Positions 5,008 to 36,296 of a stretch of DNA of 64,000 bases are shown here, in pieces. The stretch lies in assembly GCF_004342285.1 (NCBI RefSeq), contig NZ_SMCV01000007.1, positions 186,001 through 250,000 of the forward strand. Direction: 5' to 3'. Source of the DNA: Klebsiella sp. BIGb0138 (GTDB lineage: Bacteria > Pseudomonadota > Gammaproteobacteria > Enterobacterales > Enterobacteriaceae). The notes beneath the pieces are model-generated. The model was not told the origin of the DNA, ran no database searches, and saw only the letters and a program-made list of their open reading frames with translations. How positions within the stretch are numbered: the first letter of the stretch is position 1; each line of letters opens with the position of its first letter. The position numbers and the translations under genes are program-made.

Positions 5008-5747
5008 TGACGCAGACTGCCGATTTTTCATTGGTGGATATACGCGCGCTGCATAAGCGCTTTGGCGACAATGAAGTGTTGAAAGGCATTGATTTACAGA
5101 TAAAACGCCAGGAAGTGGTGTGCATTATCGGCAAAAGCGGCTCGGGGAAAAGCACCTTATTACGCTGCATTAATGGCTTAGATGCCTATCAGGCGGGAGA
5201 GCTTTTGGTGGATGGACAGCCCGTACAACAGGACGACAGCGCTGCTCTGCGCGAACTGCGGCAGAACGTCGGCATGATTTTTCAGAGCTTTAATCTTTTT
5301 CCTCACCTTACCGTGGGTAAGAACGTGATGCTGGCCCCGACGCTGGTGAAAAAGATGGCCAAAGGTGAAGCCGAGCGCACGGCCAAACGGTTATTAGAAC
5401 GCGTCGGCCTGGCCGATAAATTTGATGCCTGGCCGGATAGCCTGTCCGGCGGTCAACAGCAGCGCGTCGCTATTGCCCGCTCGCTGGCGATGAACCCGGA
5501 AATCTTGCTGTGCGATGAAATTACCTCTGCGCTGGATCCGGAGCTGGTCGGAGAAGTGCTGCAAGTGATTGAGTCGCTGGCACAGGAAGGCATGACCATC
5601 ATCATGGTCACGCACGAAATGAATTTCGCGCGCAAAGTCAGTGACCGGGTGGTGTTTATGCATCAAGGACGCGTCCACGAAGTGGGCACGCCGGACATCC
5701 TGTTTACTCAGCCGCAAACGGCAGAACTTCGTCAATTTTTGGCCTGA
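5007..5747 (+). CDS. Amino-acid-type ABC transporter ATP-binding protein
   Basis: 246 residues, a GlnQ/HisP-like ATPase. Walker A GKSGSGKST is at about residues 38-46, the Q-loop is in MIFQSFNLFPHLTV, the signature is LSGGQQQR, Walker B is ILLCDEIT, and the switch histidine is in MVTHEMNFA. The C-terminal VHEVGTPDILFTQPQTAELRQFL is characteristic of the polar amino acid subfamily. It energises the two permeases encoded immediately upstream. All catalytic motifs look intact, so the transporter should be active. Confidence 0.92.
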   Translation: MTQTADFSLVDIRALHKRFGDNEVLKGIDLQIKRQEVVCIIGKSGSGKSTLLRCINGLDAYQAGELLVDGQPVQQDDSAALRELRQNVGMIFQSFNLFPHLTVGKNVMLAPTLVKKMAKGEAERTAKRLLERVGLADKFDAWPDSLSGGQQQRVAIARSLAMNPEILLCDEITSALDPELVGEVLQVIESLAQEGMTIIMVTHEMNFARKVSDRVVFMHQGRVHEVGTPDILFTQPQTAELRQFLA

Positions 5748-5775
5748 GGGCCGCTTAAACGCCAGGAGCAGAAAA

Positions 5776-6186
5776 ATGGTACATACACGTATTCGTCCGT
5801 TTAACACCAAAGAGACCTATCCGGAGCAAAATCTGGATAACGACCTGTGTCAGGCGGTCGTCGCCGGGAATCTGGTCTTTCTACGCGGGCAAATTGGCCA
5901 AAACTTAGACACGCGTGAATCGGTGGGCATTGGTGATATCGCGGCACAAACCGAGCAGGCGATGTACAACATCAACATGCTGCTGGAAGAGAGCGGCAGC
6001 AACCTGCAGGAAATCTGCAAAATCACCGTTTATCTGACCGACGTTCGCCACCGTGAAACGGTGTACAACATCATGGGCCGCTGGTTGAAAGGCGTATTCC
6101 CCGTCTCTACCGGACTGATGATTGCACATTTGGCGCGTCCGGAATGGCAAGTTGAGATCGACGTGATCGCAGTGAAGGCGGGCTGA
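5776..6186 (+). CDS. RidA/YjgF-family deaminase-like protein
   Basis: I place the start at the ATG at 5776 (MVHTRIRPF), preceded by a CAGGAG ribosome site; the frame extends upstream but only into the ATPase gene. The 136-residue product has the Rid fold, with SGSNLQEICKITVYLTD and a C-terminal ARPEWQVEIDVIA containing the conserved active-site arginine. RidA proteins hydrolyse reactive enamine/imine intermediates made by PLP or amine-oxidising enzymes. Its place at the end of the operon suggests the pathway produces such an intermediate after ureohydrolase action; that is inference. Confidence 0.85.
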   Translation: MVHTRIRPFNTKETYPEQNLDNDLCQAVVAGNLVFLRGQIGQNLDTRESVGIGDIAAQTEQAMYNINMLLEESGSNLQEICKITVYLTDVRHRETVYNIMGRWLKGVFPVSTGLMIAHLARPEWQVEIDVIAVKAG

Positions 6187-6230
6187 TAAAACAGCAGCGA
6201 CGCGCCCGCGGAAGCATGAACGTGTGCATT

Positions 6231-6266
6231 AAGGGGGACATCGGATATCTTTGCCGCCTCCCCCTT
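6231..6266 (+). terminator. Inverted repeat after the RidA gene, possible terminator
   Basis: A perfect 8-bp inverted repeat (AAGGGGGA at 6231-6238, TCCCCCTT at 6259-6266) with a 20-base loop lies 45 bases past the RidA stop. There is no clear T run after it, so it is only a weak terminator candidate. Confidence 0.3.
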
Positions 6267-6286
6267 ATCGCCAGTCGCCCGGAGTT

Positions 6287-6660
6287 TTACCATCTTACGC
6301 GCTTGTCCTGCCATGCAAGGACCCTGGCGCGAAACATCAATAATAATTTAATCAGCGAAGAAAAAAGCAGCCCATCACAATTAACGCGGCATACATATTG
6401 GCGTAGGCCGCCCAGCCCTGAGCCCACTGTAAATACCCTCCCAGCCCCGACCTGACCCCCATCATTTCCGCGGCAACCAGCACAGAAAAAGAGGCGCCCG
6501 ACGCAAAGGATTGATGACTCCCCGGCGGCCTGTACGTCCACGTCGTCAACACCACAACAAGCAGCGCCACGGCAAAAAACAATACGCCATCGTTGGTCTC
6601 TCTGACGTGGGCTGGTCGGATAAAACCGACGCTTTTGTCCGGCCATATTGTCATTACCGC
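6287..6660 (-). pseudogene. Remnant of a sulfonate/taurine/nitrate-type ABC permease
   Basis: Read on the minus strand, one frame from a possible ATG at 6654 gives an N-terminal hydrophobic segment (ending WTYRPPG) joined directly to a permease C-terminal half with VLVAAEMMGVRSGLG and AYANMYAALIVMG, patterns of the SsuC/TauC/NtrB family. The middle of the protein, about 150 residues, is missing. The frame then breaks near 6355; the adjacent frame continues with LLFSSLIKLLLMFRARVL to a stop at 6287. The internal deletion plus frameshift make this a decayed gene. It lies head to head with a truncated ATPase of the same transporter class. Confidence 0.6.
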
Positions 6661-6661
6661 C

Positions 6662-7189
6662 CCTTCTCCATCCCGAATCGTCGTTTTTCAGGAGCCCACG
6701 CTCTATCCCTGGCTGACGGTCCGGGACAATGTGGCCTTGGGGATGAAAATAGGGTGAAAAACCCGACAAACGGATCTCGCTCGCGTAAACGAAATGCTTG
6801 AAAAAGTCGGTCTTGCTGATTTTTCACAGGCCTGGCCCCATCAGCTATCCGGCGGAATGGCCCAGCGGACGGCACTGGCCCGGGCCCTGGTCAACGACCC
6901 CGGGACGCTGCTACTTGATGAACCATTAGGGAAACTGGATTCACTGACCCGGATCCGTATGCAAAGAGAGATTATTGATTTATGGCATAAAAGTGGCGTC
7001 AGCATCATCATGGTAACCCATGACGTCGAGGAGGCGTTATTAATGGCGAACCGGATTGTCGTCTTCAGCCCTCGTCCGGCGCAGAGAATTGAAATAATAG
7101 AGCCCGGCTTATCCTGGCCACGCCACAGAGATGATCCCGAATTCATCAGTCTGCGCACCTATATTCTTCGCCTTCTGGAATATCAGTAA
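6662..7189 (+). pseudogene. Remnant of a sulfonate/taurine-type ABC ATPase, 5'-truncated with in-frame stop
   Basis: The frame shows an ATPase Q-loop (RIVVFQEPTLYPWLTV), then MKIG, an in-frame TGA at 6755-6757, and continues without frameshift into a good C-terminal half: signature LSGGMAQRTALARAL, Walker B LLLDEPLGKLD and switch VTHDVEEALLM. Walker A and the first 80 or so residues are missing. The match to SsuB/TauB/NrtD-type ATPases is clear. An intact reading frame from the ATG at 6794 could still make about 131 residues, but without Walker A it cannot be a working ATPase. Confidence 0.7.
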
Positions 7190-9385: not shown

Positions 9386-10309
9386 ATGGAATTAAAGGAT
9401 TATTATACCATTCTGGGGGTTAAGCCAACGGACGATCTAAAAACCATTAAGACCGCCTATCGTCGGCTGGCACGTAAATATCACCCCGATGTCAGCAAAG
9501 AAGCCGATGCCGAAGCGCAATTCAAAGATCTCGCCGAAGCCTGGGAGGTGCTGAAAGATGAACAACGCCGCGCGGAATATGACCAGCTCTGGCAGCATCG
9601 CAACGATCCGCAGTTTGGTCGTCAGCAGCAGTCCCGGTCCCACGAACAGAACTATAGCCAGCAGGATTTCGACGATATCTTCTCGTCGATGTTCGGCGAG
9701 CAGGCGCATCACGCCCGACGTCAGCACGCCGCACGCGGCCATGATTTAGAAATTGAAGTCGCGGTATTCCTTGAAGAGACGCTGTCCGAACAGACCCGAA
9801 CCATCAGCTATAACCTGCCGGTGTATAACGTCTTCGGCATGATCGAGAGCGAAACGCCTAAAACGCTGAATGTGAAAATCCCCGCCGGCGTCAGCGACGG
9901 CCAGCGTATTCGCCTGAAAGGGCAGGGAACGCCGGGGGAAAACGGCGGTCCGAACGGCGACCTGTGGCTGGTGATTCATATCGCGCCGCATCCGCTGTTT
10001 GATGTGGTGGGCCATAATCTGGAAATTGTCCTGCCGCTGGCGCCGTGGGAAGCGGCGCTGGGCGCGAAGGTGACCGTGCCGACGCTCAAAGAGAGCATTC
10101 TGCTGACTATCCCGCCGGGTAGCCAGGCGGGGCAACGTTTACGCATTAAAGGTAAGGGGCTGGCCAGCAAAACCGCCACCGGCGATTTATATGCGGTGAT
10201 TAAAATCGTTATGCCGCCCAAACCGAACGACAAAGCCAGCGCGCTCTGGCAGCAGCTCGCCGATGCAGAGGCCAGCTTCGAGCCGCGCAAAGCATGGGGG
10301 AAAGCATAA
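9386..10309 (+). CDS. cbpA: Curved DNA-binding protein, DnaJ-type co-chaperone CbpA
   Basis: 307 residues. The J domain occupies residues 1-70 with the HPD triad at 33-35, then a linker with Q/H/S-rich segment, and two C-terminal substrate-binding beta domains ([38 protein letters not shown]). There is no zinc finger, which separates it from DnaJ and fits CbpA (306 residues in E. coli). It stimulates DnaK and binds DNA in stationary phase. The stop TAA overlaps the ATG of cbpM. Confidence 0.95.
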
Positions 10310-10614
10310 TGGCTAAGATGACAGTGACGTTTACGACGACGGAGTTTTGTCTGCACACCGGCGTATCCGAAGAGGACCTTAGAGAGATCGTCGGCCTGGG
10401 CGTGATTGAACCGCGCCAGCCTCAGGCGGAGGTCTGGCTGTTCGATGATAGTGCGGTAATGGTAGTGCACCGGGCGGTGCGCCTGCGCCGGGAGCTGGAG
10501 CTGGACTGGCCGGGTATCGCAGTGGCCCTGACGCTGCTGGACGAAAACGCGCGCCTGACCCGGGAGAACCGGCTGCTGCAGCAACAGCTGGCGCGGTTTC
10601 TGACCCACAGCTAA
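10309..10614 (+). CDS. cbpM: Chaperone modulator CbpM
   Basis: Start at 10309, where ATG overlaps the cbpA stop (TAATG); the upstream in-frame ATG at 10294 lies inside cbpA. The 101-residue protein has the MerR-like fold of CbpM ([27 protein letters not shown]) and a C-terminal helix [12 protein letters not shown]. CbpM binds the J domain of CbpA and blocks its co-chaperone and DNA-binding activities, so the overlap couples synthesis of CbpA with its inhibitor. Confidence 0.94.
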
Positions 10615-10687
10615 CCTGTAATGCCCAGCTCGCCTCCCCCCGGCTTGCGCTACGCTTAGCCGGCGACAACATCCACAAACTCGATAG

Positions 10688-10717
10688 CCCGGATAAGGCG
10701 TTGACGCCGCATCCGGG
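10688..10717. repeat. REP/BIME palindromic element
   Basis: CCCGGATAAGGCG (10688-10700) and CGCCGCATCCGGG (10705-10717) form the common enterobacterial REP hairpin, between the convergent ends of cbpM and the stbB-like gene. A second related segment (GCTTGCGCTACGC) lies at about 10643-10656. It probably protects or terminates the transcripts from both sides. Confidence 0.8.
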
Positions 10718-10736
10718 GAAACCCGCCTGCGGGCGC

Positions 10737-11108
10737 TTAATCCGGCAGCGAGCCGGCAAGATTACGTGCGGAAATGCTCTCTGCCGCACTCGCTTCTGCT
10801 GCAACCGGAACAGGCGCCGCAGGCGCAGCTGTCGGAGCGGGCGCCGGTACTGCGGGCTGAATTTCCAGAAACGAAGCCAGCATCGTACGCAACATCTCCG
10901 GCCGGGTATCTTCCGCCAGTAAAGCCGCCAGCATTGACGGCAAACGGCCGTCAATTTCCCCCAGCGCGAGGCCTGCCAGCAAAGCGGTACGCGACATTTC
11001 GCCGCGATCGCCACGATGATGGGCCTCAATTTTGGCATCGGCAAAGCGCTCGCTGGCGCTGATATCCGGGCGCAGGTAAATCAGAACTTTTCTGCGTTCC
11101 AGAGTCAT
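10737..11108 (-). CDS. StbB/ParR-like plasmid partition DNA-binding protein
   Basis: 123 residues. The N-terminus (MTLERRKVLIYLRPD, then SERFADAKIEAHHRGDRGEMSRTALLAG) has the strand-helix-helix look of a ribbon-helix-helix protein such as ParR of plasmid R1 (117 residues) or StbB. It is followed by a helix LPSMLAALLAEDTRPEML and an Ala/Pro-rich tail (about residues 88-105). The gene starts 9 bases after the stop of a ParM-like gene, exactly as parR follows parM. Its role should be to bind the repeat array upstream of parM and cap the filament. No plasmid replication genes are near. The family call rests on context plus the N-terminal pattern. Confidence 0.78.
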   Translation of the reverse strand: MTLERRKVLIYLRPDISASERFADAKIEAHHRGDRGEMSRTALLAGLALGEIDGRLPSMLAALLAEDTRPEMLRTMLASFLEIQPAVPAPAPTAAPAAPVPVAAEASAAESISARNLAGSLPD

Positions 11109-11117
11109 ACCCGCTCC

Positions 11118-12074
11118 TTAACCTATAATTTTCAGACCGCGAACCAGCGCAAACTGCGGTTCATCAGCCACCACAAAGCGATCGTCACGCAGCCCAACGC
11201 GCGTACGGATGGCGTCCGCCACCAGCGGCGCGCCGCCGCCAATCACAATCACATGGGAATAGCCCTTAAAGCTATCAATGGTCGTCAGCACGCGCGTGCA
11301 GAGCCGTTCAATACTGCCGGCAATCACTTTTTTGACGTCAGAGACCGCATCCGGATCGTTAATATTGTCGGCTAAATAGGCATCATCATGGCGATTGATG
11401 ATGATCTGATCGACGTTGTAGCTGGAAGTATCGGTATTCGCTCTGGCCAACGCCAGCTTCACCGCATCGGTCACCAGCGACACGCCCAGTTTCGGGTCGC
11501 CAAAAATACGCGAAACCGACGTCATCTGACCGGCTACCATCGAGATATCCAGCGTGGTCCCGCCGAGGTCGACAATCAGCACGGAGTGTGACGGTTTGAG
11601 CTCATCGCACAGACTGATACCGGCCGGGATAGATTCCGGGCGCACGGTGACTTTGGTGATATTGAACACTTCACCTTTGTTGAGTTTTACCGGGCGGCGA
11701 AGGCTCTTTTTCTTACGTTCGATATTGTCGAGGCGGTACTGGGCATCTTCGTCGTAAAACTCCGTCAGCGGCAGGGTCACCACGATCTCAACATCCTGCG
11801 GTTCAATGCCGCTGGTCAGCAGGGCATGATGCACGGCGATGGAGTTCAGCGGGCTGTACTGCCATTCGATATTGTTGGTCGGCAACGCATCTGGCGTAAT
11901 CAGATCAAAGGAGTACTTCTCCTCATCCACGGTGTAGTTATAAGGCTTCCCGGTACCGAAGGTGGCCGACCATCCACGCTTGAAGCTGTTAGGGCTGATA
12001 TGGGTCAATGTTTCACCATCTTGCTCCCACAGCATTTTGATATTGGTTGAACCATCATCGATAAAAATGCGCAT
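11118..12074 (-). CDS. ParM/StbA-like actin ATPase of a type II partition system
   Basis: Start at 12074 (MRIFIDDGSTNIK); the longer frame to 12134 runs into the repeat array. The 318-residue product is close to ParM of plasmid R1 (320): phosphate-1 motif FIDDGSTNIK, 'HISPNSFK', 'AVHHALLTSG', phosphate-2 VDLGGTTLDIS, GDPKLGVSLVT and adenosine motif HVIVIGGGAPLV. ParM forms ATP-dependent dynamic filaments that push DNA copies apart. All nucleotide-binding motifs look intact. It is followed 9 bases on by the StbB/ParR-like gene and preceded by phased 11-bp repeats. Placement among housekeeping genes indicates a chromosomal copy; its cargo is unknown. Confidence 0.9.
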   Translation of the reverse strand: MRIFIDDGSTNIKMLWEQDGETLTHISPNSFKRGWSATFGTGKPYNYTVDEEKYSFDLITPDALPTNNIEWQYSPLNSIAVHHALLTSGIEPQDVEIVVTLPLTEFYDEDAQYRLDNIERKKKSLRRPVKLNKGEVFNITKVTVRPESIPAGISLCDELKPSHSVLIVDLGGTTLDISMVAGQMTSVSRIFGDPKLGVSLVTDAVKLALARANTDTSSYNVDQIIINRHDDAYLADNINDPDAVSDVKKVIAGSIERLCTRVLTTIDSFKGYSHVIVIGGGAPLVADAIRTRVGLRDDRFVVADEPQFALVRGLKIIG

Positions 12075-12091
12075 CGTATCGCTCCGTCTCT

Positions 12092-12260
12092 GAGACAAAT
12101 AAGAGAAAAAAGTAAGACCCAAAAAGAGTAGCAAGAGTTAAAAGGCAGCGCAATAGCGTAAAAAAGAGACAATTCCGAGAAATTAAAGAGATAAATTAGA
12201 TAAAAACAAAGTTAAAGAAACAATAAAGAGACTAAAACGAGAAAAATCAGAGAAATATCA
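12092..12260. repeat. Phased 11-bp repeat array upstream of the parM-like gene, candidate centromere (parC-like)
   Basis: An AT-rich tract with the core GAGA (variants GATA, GAAA, GAGT) recurring at 11-base steps: 12166, 12177, 12188, 12199, then after a phase break 12217, 12228, 12239, 12250; nearer parM, 12092, 12103, and weaker copies at 12116, 12126 and 12135. A repeat-free gap (about 12146-12165) separates the two groups and could hold the parM promoter. In plasmid R1, parC is ten 11-bp repeats in two groups flanking the parM promoter. Spacing and location match; binding is inferred. Confidence 0.7.
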
Positions 12261-12474
12261 GCATTCATTCTTTCGCGTTTTCTGGCGAAAAATCAGGGGA
12301 AAACCGGCGCGGTGTCCGCTAATTTTTGCCTACGCTTACCTGCAATCCGATGGTTTTATCAGCAACCGCAGGATGGTTGGTCGCAGCGTCCTCCTGGTGA
12401 GGCGGCGGCCGACGTCGGGAAATGAGATCACCAGAGATACCGTCAGGCCGGGCAGCCCGACGGCGGGGGACGTA
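12261..12474. other. Intergenic stretch between the repeat array and melA
   Basis: About 210 bases past the melA stop. No gene, and no trace of melB, is seen. A GC-rich inverted segment near 12448-12466 (CCGGGCAGCCCG, then GGCGGG) could terminate melA transcription, but it lacks a T run. Confidence 0.4.
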
Positions 12475-13821
12475 TTAACGCTGCAGCCAGGCCGGCAGCC
12501 AGTCGCCGTGGCTGGCGATCAGATCGTCCACCAGGGCATAGATTTCGTCGATCCCCAACACCGCCGAGGTATGCGGATCCATCATCGTGGCGTAGTACAC
12601 ATAATCGCGGTTCTCGGTAAGGATCGCTTCTGTCAGCAGGGCCTGGACGTTGATATTGCTCTGCATCAGCGCTGCCAGATGCGCAGGCAGCGTCCCGACT
12701 TTCGTGGGCTGAATGCCGTTTGCATCCACCAGGCAGGCCACCTCCACGCAGCATCCTTGCGGCAGGTTATCGATCAGCCCGTCGTTGCGTACGTTGCCGT
12801 ATACCACGCTCGGCTCGCCGGTCCAGAGGGCGTTCATGATGGTGCTGGCATACTCACGGGAGGGTTTCACCTCGATACGATCGCCGGTCTGGTAGAGCGC
12901 CAGCTCTTTATGCCAGTTCGCCACCTGCTCCACGCAGCGTTTCGGATACTCGTCCAGCGGTATCTGGTAGCGCGCAATCAGATCTTCGCGCCCCGGTTTG
13001 ATAAACCACGGAGTATATTCGGCGAAATGTTCTGAGGATTCCGTCACGAAATAGCCCAGCTTTTTGCACATCTCATAGCGGACAATATTCTGGCAGCGCG
13101 AGTTTTCCCGATGCTTCGGCGCGCGTCCGTCGGCAAAGGCCTGCAGTATATCCGGATAAATACTGACATAGCGGCCGTCGCCGATCTTTCTCTCCAGCGA
13201 CAGATAGAAGGCCATATGGTTGATCCCGGCGCAGCGGTAACGTAAGTCCGCCGGGTCGAGGTCAAGATCGTGCGCCAGCTCTTCCGCCGTTCCCTGCACC
13301 GAGTGGCATAAGCCCACCTGCTTGATATGCGGATAGCGCGCGTACATCGCCCAGGTATTCATCGCCATCGGATTAACATAGTTGAGCAGGGTGGCATGGG
13401 GACAGACCTCGGTCATATCGTCGCAGATGCGCCACAGATGCGGGATGGTGCGCAGCGCGCGCATCACCCCGCCTGGGCCCAGCGTATCCGCGATGGTTTG
13501 CTCCAGGCCGTGGCGTTTGCAGACTGCAAAATCGGTCACCGTACAGGGTTCATAGCCGCCAATCTGAAAGGCCACCACCACAAAATCCGCATCCTTCAGC
13601 GCGGTTTTCTGCTCACGGTGGCAGCTGATTTCACCGTCAGCCCCCACGGAGTCCATCAGTTTGCGAACCACAATATGCGACTCTTCTAACCGGGTCGCAT
13701 CAATATCCATCAGCGCGACGTGGGCTGATTTCAGCGCCGGGCGCTGAAAGACATCGCCGAGGATATTTTTGACGAAAACCGTTGAACCCGCGCCGATAAA
13801 CGTAATTTTTGGGGCTGACAT
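12475..13821 (-). CDS. melA: Alpha-galactosidase MelA (GH4)
   Basis: 448 residues, near the 451 of E. coli MelA and alike along its length. The N-terminus has the NAD-binding ITFIGAGSTVF and DIDATRLEESH; GH4 hallmarks follow: QIGGYEP, TLGPGGVMRALRT, the metal-binding NYVNPMA and CHSVQG (catalytic Cys/His ligands), and AGINHMAFYL. GH4 enzymes use NAD+ and Mn2+ to cleave melibiose and other alpha-galactosides through a redox mechanism in the cytoplasm. It is divergent from melR, which should activate it with melibiose and CRP. No melB transporter gene follows. Confidence 0.95.
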   Translation of the reverse strand: MSAPKITFIGAGSTVFVKNILGDVFQRPALKSAHVALMDIDATRLEESHIVVRKLMDSVGADGEISCHREQKTALKDADFVVVAFQIGGYEPCTVTDFAVCKRHGLEQTIADTLGPGGVMRALRTIPHLWRICDDMTEVCPHATLLNYVNPMAMNTWAMYARYPHIKQVGLCHSVQGTAEELAHDLDLDPADLRYRCAGINHMAFYLSLERKIGDGRYVSIYPDILQAFADGRAPKHRENSRCQNIVRYEMCKKLGYFVTESSEHFAEYTPWFIKPGREDLIARYQIPLDEYPKRCVEQVANWHKELALYQTGDRIEVKPSREYASTIMNALWTGEPSVVYGNVRNDGLIDNLPQGCCVEVACLVDANGIQPTKVGTLPAHLAALMQSNINVQALLTEAILTENRDYVYYATMMDPHTSAVLGIDEIYALVDDLIASHGDWLPAWLQR

Positions 13822-34148: not shown

Positions 34149-36296
34149 ATGAAAAAAGTCGTCACGGTTTGCCCGTATTGCGCATCAGGTTGCAAAATCA
34201 ACCTGGTGGTCGATAACGGCAAAATCGTCCGGGCTGAGGCGGCACAGGGGAAAACCAACCAGGGCACCCTGTGTCTGAAAGGCTACTATGGCTGGGATTT
34301 TATTAACGATACCCAGATCCTCACCCCGCGCCTGAAAACCCCGATGATCCGCCGTCAGCGCGGCGGCAAGCTGGAATCCGTCTCCTGGGACGAAGCGCTC
34401 GATTACGTCGCCGCTCGCCTCAGCGCCATTAAAGCCAAGTACGGCCCGGATGCTATCCAGACCACCGGCTCATCCCGCGGGACCGGCAATGAAACCAACT
34501 ATGTGATGCAAAAATTCGCCCGCGCCGTTATTGGTACCAATAACGTCGACTGCTGCGCGCGCGTCTGACACGGCCCTTCGGTTGCAGGTCTGCACCAGTC
34601 GGTCGGTAATGGCGCTATGAGTAATGCCATCACAGAGATTGATAACACCGATCTGGTGTTTATCTTCGGCTATAACCCGGCGGATTCGCACCCTATTGTG
34701 GCGAACCACGTGATTAACGCCAAACGCAACGGGGCGAAAATCATCGTCTGCGATCCGCGTAAAATCGAAACCGCGCGCATTGCGGATATGCATATCGCGC
34801 TGAAAAACGGCTCGAACATTGCGCTGCTAAACGCCATCGGTCATGTGATTATTGCAGAGGAGCTCTACGATAAATCCTTCGTCGCCAGCCGTACCGAGGG
34901 CTTCGAGGAGTATCGCAAAATCGTCGAAGGCTATACGCCGGAGTCGGTGGAAGCGATCACCGGCGTCAGCGCACAGCAAATCCGCGAATGCGCCCGGATG
35001 TACGCGACGGCGAAATCCGCCGCCATCCTGTGGGGCATGGGGGTCACCCAGTTCTACCAGGGGGTGGAAACCGTACGCTCGCTGACCAGTCTGGCGATCA
35101 TGACCGGCAACCTCGGCAAGCCGAGCGTCGGCGTCAACCCGGTGCGCGGGCAGAACAATGTCCAGGGCGCCTGCGATATGGGCGCGCTGCCGGATACCTA
35201 TCCAGGCTATCAGTACGTGAAATTCCCGGAAAACCGGGAGAAGTTCGCCAAAGCCTGGGGCGTGGAGAGCCTGCCGGCGCACACCGGCTATCGCATCAGC
35301 GAACTGCCGCACCGCGCGGCCCACGGCGAAGTCCGGGCGGCGTACATTATGGGCGAAGATCCGCTGCAGACCGACGCCGAGCTGTCCGCCGTGCGTCAGG
35401 CGTTTGACGAGCTGGAGCTGGTTATCGTCCAGGACATCTTTATGACCAAAACCGCGTCGGCGGCGGATGTGATTTTGCCGTCCACCTCGTGGGGCGAACA
35501 TGAAGGCGTCTACACCGCGGCGGACCGCGGCTTCCAGCGCTTCTTCAAAGCGGTGGAGCCGAAGTGGGATCTGAAAACCGACTGGCAGATTATCAGCGAA
35601 ATCGCCACCCGAATGGGGTATCCGATGCACTACAACAACACCCAGGAGATCTGGGATGAGTTACGTCATCTGTGCCCGGATTTCACCGGCGCCACCTACG
35701 AGAAAATGGGCGAGCTGGGCTACATCATGTGGCCGTGTCGCGACGAGTCCGAGGCCGACCAGGGGACCTCTTATCTGTTTAAAGAGAAGTTCGACACCCC
35801 CAACGGCCTGGCGCAGTTCTTCACCTGCGACTGGGTTGCGCCGGTCGATAAGCTTACCGCCGAGTATCCGATGGTGCTCTCCACCGTGCGGGAAGTGGGC
35901 CACTATTCGTGCCGCTCGATGACCGGCAACTGTGCGGCGCTGGCCGCGCTGGCGGATGAGCCTGGCTACGCGCAAATCAATACCGCCGATGCCGCGCGTC
36001 TGGGGATCGAGGATGAAGCGCTGGTGTGGGTCAATTCGCGCAAAGGGCGCATCATCACCCGCGCACAGGTCAGCGATCGTCCGAATATCGGGGCGGTATA
36101 TATGACCTATCAGTGGTGGATCGGCGCCTGTAACGAACTGGTCTCGGAGCACCTAAGTCCGATAACCAAGACGCCGGAGTACAAGTACTGCGCGGTGAAC
36201 GTGGAACGCATTGCCGACCAGCGCGCCGCCGAGCAGTACGTGATTGATGAGTACAATAAGCTGAAATCCCGCCTGCGCGAAAGCGCGATGGGTTAA
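34149..36296 (+). CDS. fdhF: Formate dehydrogenase H, selenocysteine-containing
   Basis: One gene of 716 codons including an in-frame TGA at 34566-34568, which is selenocysteine 140 (V-U-H-G-P), the molybdenum ligand; E. coli FdhF has Sec at the same position. The N-terminal 4Fe-4S ligands are C8, C11, C15 and C42. Molybdopterin-binding segments such as GVNPVRGQNNVQGACDMG and MTYQWWIGACNELV are present. The enzyme oxidises formate to CO2 in the formate hydrogenlyase complex. Treating the TGA as a stop would split it into a 139-residue and a 559-residue piece; the SECIS element right after shows that it is read through. Confidence 0.97.
34566..34604 (+). promoter_or_regulatory. SECIS element of fdhF mRNA
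   Basis: The TGA is followed by ACACGGCCCTTCGGTTGCAGGTCTGCACC and CAGTCGGTC, nearly the E. coli fdhF hairpin, with the GGUCU loop bound by SelB. It directs selenocysteine insertion at the codon at its 5' end. Confidence 0.9.

Follow-up and report, generated by a model that had tools for sequence, protein, structure and literature searches.

Plasmids, phages, and ICEs are the known carriers of type II (parMRC) partition loci. The locus of plasmid R1 serves as our reference: its ParR/parC/ParM filament mechanism is the source, by homology, of the steps proposed below, the number and spacing of its parC iterons are the basis for likening the array described here to R1, and the placement of the promoter within its par layout is the basis for our promoter assignment. 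Chromosomal ParABS systems have their centromere near the replication origin; no dedicated segregation system of the ParABS type is known from enterobacterial chromosomes.

The srpMRC proteins of SXT/R391 ICEs are reported to be only distantly related to those of R1 parMRC (PMC4489591). In two other papers, parM is mentioned as a CRISPR spacer target (PMC6965323) and plasmid partition is the subject (PMC12317039). No description of a chromosomal parMRC locus in Klebsiella was found in the open-licence papers searched.

Here we analyzed the window, the whole 64 kb stretch of DNA from Klebsiella sp. BIGb0138. Sequence analysis confirmed that parM, parR, and an iteron array together make up an intact type II (parMRC) locus, which lies on the chromosome with cbpAM on one side and melA on the other. 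The relevant features are as follows.

10294..10614, plus strand: cbpM, left flank, convergent with parR (Pfam)
10737..11108, minus strand: parR, 123 aa, predicted StbB-type centromere-binding adaptor (Pfam, PHROG, and PDB matches)
11118..12074, minus strand: parM, ATG at 12074, stop codon ending at 11118, 318 aa, StbA/ParM-family actin-like ATPase
12092..12253, minus strand: parC-like putative centromere of ten iterons, phased at 11 bp and grouped 4+4+2 (phasing test, layout, and conservation)
12107..12165, minus strand: presumed parMR promoter region, a well-conserved stretch that separates the proximal iteron pair from the distal groups (alignment A1)
12475..13821, minus strand: melA (family 4 glycosidase), right flank in the window's genome (Pfam)

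Protein components of the partition locus

The parM product matches Pfam StbA_N (E = 2.9e-66) and the ParM C-terminal family (5.9e-54), and the solved plasmid ParM structures 4a62 and 1mwk match it with E values of about 1e-107. It shares 53% identity with PDB 4a62 and keeps D7, E148, and D170, which we take to be the ATPase catalytic positions.

Nine bases separate parM from parR. ParR matches Pfam Plasmid_stab_B (1.3e-14), PHROG 8671 "partition protein" (6e-40), and the solved StbB 2jd3 (2e-10). From the 2jd3 sequence match, ParR may have a ribbon-helix-helix fold; its AlphaFold monomer model is of low confidence (mean pLDDT, 54.5). In alignment A2, built from 35 of 187 hits (120 listed) together with the D6 protein and the window protein minus its first residue, the N-terminal part is conserved, an Ala/Pro-rich linker is variable, and the C-terminal tail SxSA(R/K)NLAGSLP(D/E) is conserved. 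By analogy, this tail is probably the ParM-binding segment. The motif was absent from 21 of the 120 ParR matches listed, several of which are frameshifted or partial K. pneumoniae-type proteins and others of which merely deviate; frameshifted or truncated clusters of that type include P0137, P0142, P0180, and P0236.

A phased iteron array upstream of parM

The region upstream of parM is AT-rich, with 33% GC (12075-12262) versus 57% for the window. On the parM strand, TCTC occurs at -179, -168, -157, -117, -106, -95, -32, and -21 relative to the ATG. Seven pairs within 66 bp are spaced at multiples of 11 bp; 1000 dinucleotide shuffles averaged 0.11 such pairs and never reached seven (0/1000). 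Cores with one mismatch at -146 and -128 complete a 4+4+2 arrangement of ten iterons, all on the minus strand.

First four distal cores: 12250-12253, 12239-12242, 12228-12231, and 12217-12220 (TTTC)
Second four cores: 12199-12202 (TATC), 12188-12191, 12177-12180, and 12166-12169
Proximal pair: 12103-12106 and 12092-12095

When the distal array was compared between the window and related genomes, 114/120 cells in the TCTC cores were identical (95%) versus 188/350 in the spacers (54%; Fisher 4e-19), and 22/24 core columns versus 22/70 spacer columns were conserved; these p-values are optimistic, given that related genomes do not supply independent cells and that matches are favored by the alignment, but the contrast is large. 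All three parts of the reading in the earlier note, ParM and ParR genes with a phased repeat array directly upstream, are borne out by the Pfam and PDB matches and by the array itself.

The stretch at 12107..12165 is presumed, by analogy with R1, to hold the parMR promoter. A sigma-70 consensus scan for promoters gave no match, and a terminator scan and an Rfam search likewise returned nothing. We also considered a second centromere at C7:20110-20135 (L077), the sole other exact triple of TCTC at 11-bp spacing in the genome, which lies upstream of a gene judged by eye to be carbonic-anhydrase-like. Since about 0.7 matches are expected by chance at equal base frequencies (the reversed-pattern control gave 0), this triple is compatible with chance and was not taken as real.

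Chromosomal setting

C7, the contig to which the window belongs, accounts for 314 kb of a 32-contig, 5.6 Mb assembly, and in five other genomes this site is found on contigs of 4.9-5.5 Mb. Pfam assigned the 10 flanking proteins to ScsC/DsbA-like, TerC, DnaJ-type CbpA, CbpM, MelA, AraC-type MelR, ProP, YjdM, and two ABC-transporter parts. None of these 10 belonged to phage, transfer, replication, IS, or integrase families, and no tRNA was found in the window; the remainder of the 64 kb was judged by eye from the N-terminal 50 residues of the translated ORFs. The earlier note had placed the locus on what looked like a chromosome with no replication, transfer, or IS genes near, and its reading would have failed on a plasmid or an integrated plasmid. 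The size of the contigs and the core-type character of the scanned flanks uphold that placement. An integrated plasmid or island was rejected for the window in view of these flanks and of the 14 cassette-less genomes, which have cbpM beside mel or proP and gave no parM or parR by tblastn.

Several irregularities were noted in the surroundings. The cbpM-parR intergenic stretch (10615-10736) appears REP-like by eye, and so do its counterparts in several relatives. At 12263-12474, melB is missing here and sits between parM and melA in G001, G013, G014, and G019; G002 has only a melB remnant at the mel site and lacks melA and melR there. ORFs at 5641-7189 are irregular, and the match of 6794-7189 to an ABC-transporter ATPase profile is confined to the end of that profile, possibly reflecting a disrupted gene. 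At 34149-36296, two adjacent plus-strand ORFs (34149-34568 and 34617-36296) correspond to the beginning and the remainder of a single molybdopterin oxidoreductase, resembling a formate dehydrogenase with an in-frame stop that is probably a selenocysteine TGA.

The distance from the parC site to dnaA is 392-440 kb, or 7.5-7.9% of the chromosome, in four genomes (G001, G002, G014, and G019) and would be about 0.53 Mb in the draft assembly G013 if the scaffold with the site closes on itself; in the window's assembly, dnaA is on a different contig. This distance is not evidence of selection for position because it follows from synteny of the site.

Distribution of the cassette

Both genes were found at the cbpM-mel site in 6/20 genomes of the genus, the window's included, with identities of at least 92% for ParM and at least 85% for ParR (78-82% by BLAST). 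In all six carriers, the pair directly follows cbpM and precedes melB, melA, or, in G002, the melB remnant. cbpM is present in the site region of all 20 genomes. In the other 14, tblastn to 1e-10 over the 9-10 kb surrounding the site detected neither parM nor parR, ParR was not found anywhere in the genome at 1e-5, and cbpM lies beside mel or proP. The search for the cassette between cbpM and the mel genes suggested in the earlier note thus recovered a complete chromosomal parMRC, but one that is not genus-wide: it occupies a fixed site in part of the genus, and neither gene is detectable there in 14/20 genomes. Because those 14 genomes live without it, the cassette is dispensable. Six genus genomes have, between them, eight further ParM-like genes (35-50% identity), located on other contigs with lengths of 68-304 kb.

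In wider, overlapping draws, ParM at E 1e-120 or better was found in 5/392 genomes of the family and 2/394 of the order, all of the same genus except G170 (Yokenella). Record names place the cassette in K. pneumoniae, and ParR cluster names add K. quasipneumoniae and K. aerogenes. Cluster sizes (1371 members for parM and 2218 for cbpA) were considered as a proxy for prevalence within species and set aside as too rough. Two PLSDB records filed as plasmids, CP125156.1 (5.37 Mb) and NZ_CP129856.1 (550 kb), carry the chromosomal neighborhood of the cassette; in CP125156.1, about 2.2 kb lies between parR and cbpM, possibly an insertion.

Selection and age

Pairwise dN/dS values (Nei-Gojobori) were calculated for the 15 chromosomal pairs from the six carriers. 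For parM they were 0.014-0.051 in 14 pairs, the other pair having no amino-acid change, which is comparable to the 0.015-0.073 found for cbpA in 15 pairs; for parR they were 0.026-0.114 in 15 pairs, with no sign of diversifying selection in these pairwise comparisons. Both genes are under purifying selection, and the iteron cores are constrained. The earlier note had asked for this measure and had named decay in most relatives as the outcome that would count against it; both genes are intact in the six genomes that have them, with dN/dS far below 1. A decayed relic was rejected for the same six genomes on the basis of dN/dS and iteron conservation. Because its parts have been kept intact by evolution at the same chromosomal place, the cassette probably does a job for the host.

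Between the window and the five other carriers, dS was 0.88-1.26 for parM, 0.80-1.08 for parR, 0.72-1.17 for cbpA, and 0.91-1.37 for cbpM, values near 1 being close to saturation. It was 0.75-0.87 for melA (four genomes) and lower, 0.61-0.72, for proP (two comparisons, G001 and G002; those with G013 and G019 covered 8 codons and were dropped, and G014 yielded no proP). Since the values for the cassette and most flanking genes are similar, they look about equally old. GC3 is 65.4% for parM and 65.8% for cbpA; that of parR, 57.7%, is below the flanks.

Origin of the cassette

A tree of acs plus cbpA rooted on E. coli united the window with six genomes lacking the cassette (99.8/100) and split the remaining carriers between two further groups, with weak deep nodes; in an unrooted tree of cbpA plus cbpM, the five other carriers grouped together (100/99). 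On counts alone, one gain with two or three losses is about equal to up to three separate gains or transfers. A single origin is favored because all carriers have the cassette at one site, their ParMs form one clade, and the dS values point the same way.

The ParM tree contained 52 rows, 45 of 323 hits (120 listed) plus 7 added proteins; P0006 was left out because of its length. One group (100/99) united the six chromosomal proteins with four close records from the database. Its sister, with moderate support (82/95), comprised P0003 (longest contig, 96 kb; record named K. variicola), P0005 (91 kb), and P0010 (86 kb). From their size and kinship, these 86-96 kb contigs are perhaps phage-plasmids. 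ParMs of D6-like elements (80% identity) fell outside both the chromosomal and the sister group. The cassette was called plasmid-type in the earlier note; its nearest named relatives, judged by the ParM tree, the 80% identity with D6, and the iteron layout, are phage-plasmids and not conjugative plasmids. Taken by its sequence, the cassette looks like an old, domesticated phage-plasmid partition system that was lost in some lineages.

Proposed mechanism and alternatives

Our leading reading, to which we give a probability of roughly 45%, is that the cassette may be a functional, domesticated parMRC that moves its own origin-proximal chromosomal locus. Its probable source is a D6-like phage-plasmid: capture into the cbpM-mel site would have taken place long ago, in an ancestor of the group, and would have been followed by inheritance and by loss in several lineages. 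ParR would bind the phased iterons, and its C-terminal tails would thereby be clustered; the clustered tails would nucleate and cap ParM filaments, and ParM polymerizing with ATP would push sister copies of parC apart. With parC residing on the chromosome, at 0.39-0.44 Mb from dnaA in the four genomes measured, what is moved would be the origin-proximal region itself. We infer that ParR binds, that filaments form, that the locus moves, and that the host benefits. Movement of its own locus is favored because the ATPase residues, the adaptor tail, and the centromere are all kept, a combination that would argue for filaments still forming on the chromosomal parC. The sequence evidence thus argues mildly for action on the chromosomal locus itself.

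Retention of ParM and ParR is also compatible with a role in incompatibility. The chromosomal parC, ParR, and ParM could mispair with phage-plasmids that have the same centromere, causing bad segregation and loss and so acting as an immunity device; this is the main rival reading, which we regard as less likely than not. It is consistent with the kinship of ParM, whose closest relatives come from the 86-96 kb contigs and then from D6-like phage-plasmids, with the shared iteron layout, and with the similar ParR N-terminus. This ParM type (E 1e-120) occurs in 189 plasmid records, only 2 of them from Klebsiella and both with the chromosomal phn-proP-mel-cbp neighborhood, and the D6-type capsid occurs in 139 records, 0 of them from Klebsiella. 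Precedents are found in C. perfringens, where ParR also recognizes noncognate parC belonging to its own family (PMC9426499), and in SGI1, which expels IncC plasmids through parS by hijacking parABS (PMC10954446). However, P1-like phage-plasmids are rare in Klebsiella generally: Klebsiella accounts for 11/935 P1-like capsid records, that is, 11/~799 outside the D6 type, so about 1.9 Klebsiella records would be expected among the 139 and none would be seen about one time in seven. The absence of D6-like elements was therefore not significant against this control and was not accepted as proof of exclusion. In addition, P0003 (K. variicola, 96 kb), in the sister clade, implies that such elements may occur in Klebsiella, and the absence of any sign of diversifying selection in ParR and the possibility that a decoy parC alone could suffice also count against exclusion. 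For a centromere serving only as a decoy, an ATPase-competent ParM and a complete ParR, both so constrained, would presumably be unnecessary. Among PADLOC defence models, ParM and ParR were unmatched, and the neighboring CbpM gave a weak match to mads_1 (E = 3e-4).

That the cassette serves the host in some other way, for instance with ParR binding used for regulation at the site, is improbable, as the kept ATPase residues and ParR tail point to filaments. That the chromosomal ParM and ParR act in trans to stabilize plasmids carrying only a matching parC would fit with both proteins being intact, but the seven lower-identity ParM loci of the genus that were inspected (L007-L009 and L011-L014, with L010 left out) have no repeated CTC-type 11-bp array, and we consider this help very improbable. 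Less probable still is stabilization of an integrated element or island around the cassette. Yokenella parMR (ParM 73%), beside a tRNA-Phe, a phage-type integrase, and type I restriction-modification genes, and the srpMRC of SXT/R391 ICEs (PMC4489591) make such a role conceivable, but the 10 core-type flanks without an integrase and the lack of a tRNA in the window largely refute it. The least probable reading is an inert relic of an integrated phage-plasmid: the frameshifted or truncated K. pneumoniae-type ParRs noted above and a shortened ParM (P0004) are in its favor, but very low dN/dS and constrained iterons over a dS near 1 in six genomes speak against it.

A selection-kept chromosomal parMRC in an important species would mean either a host-domesticated actin motor or a centromere-based barrier to phage-plasmids, and under either reading the annotation "plasmid segregation protein ParM" in the records becomes a testable question. 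It is also a warning that parM is no safe marker of plasmid contigs in the Klebsiella group. The two ideas could hold together, so that part of the group, K. pneumoniae included, would have an actin-driven, origin-near centromere that pushes sister regions apart and would be refractory to phage-plasmids with the same iterons; on sequence grounds, we regard this joint proposition as rather doubtful.

Comparison with known partition systems

Like the locus described here, srpMRC of SXT/R391 ICEs is a type II partition locus found in chromosomes; in contrast, it lies in a mobile element, forms one operon with the integrase, and acts on the excised form (PMC4489591). The Yokenella parMR (L017) shares 73% ParM identity and has CTCA iterons at 11 bp, but at L017 6051-12834 it is accompanied by tRNA-Phe, a phage-type integrase, and hsdM/hsdS-type genes, and because of these neighbors it is probably part of an integrative island. 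Chromosomal ParABS systems would be alike in having an origin-near centromere, if the cassette moves the chromosome, and differ in their NTPase and adaptor families.

The StbA/StbB system of phage-plasmid D6 has 80% ParM identity, the ParR tail, an N-terminus of ParR similar to that of the chromosomal proteins, and 6/8 exact D6 TCTC cores at the window positions. The IMG/VR relatives L074-L076 have the 4+4+2 layout with the distal part shifted by 10 bp. D6 differs in being a phage-plasmid of ~91 kb with a shorter, more diverged ParR, and D6 and L074-L076 have extra TCTC. With the parMRC loci of R1 and pB171, the window locus shares the order parC-parM-parR, an actin-like ATPase, a StbB-type ParR, and 11-bp-phased iterons upstream of parM, whereas its chromosomal location, fixed site, TCTC core, and 4+4+2 layout set it apart.
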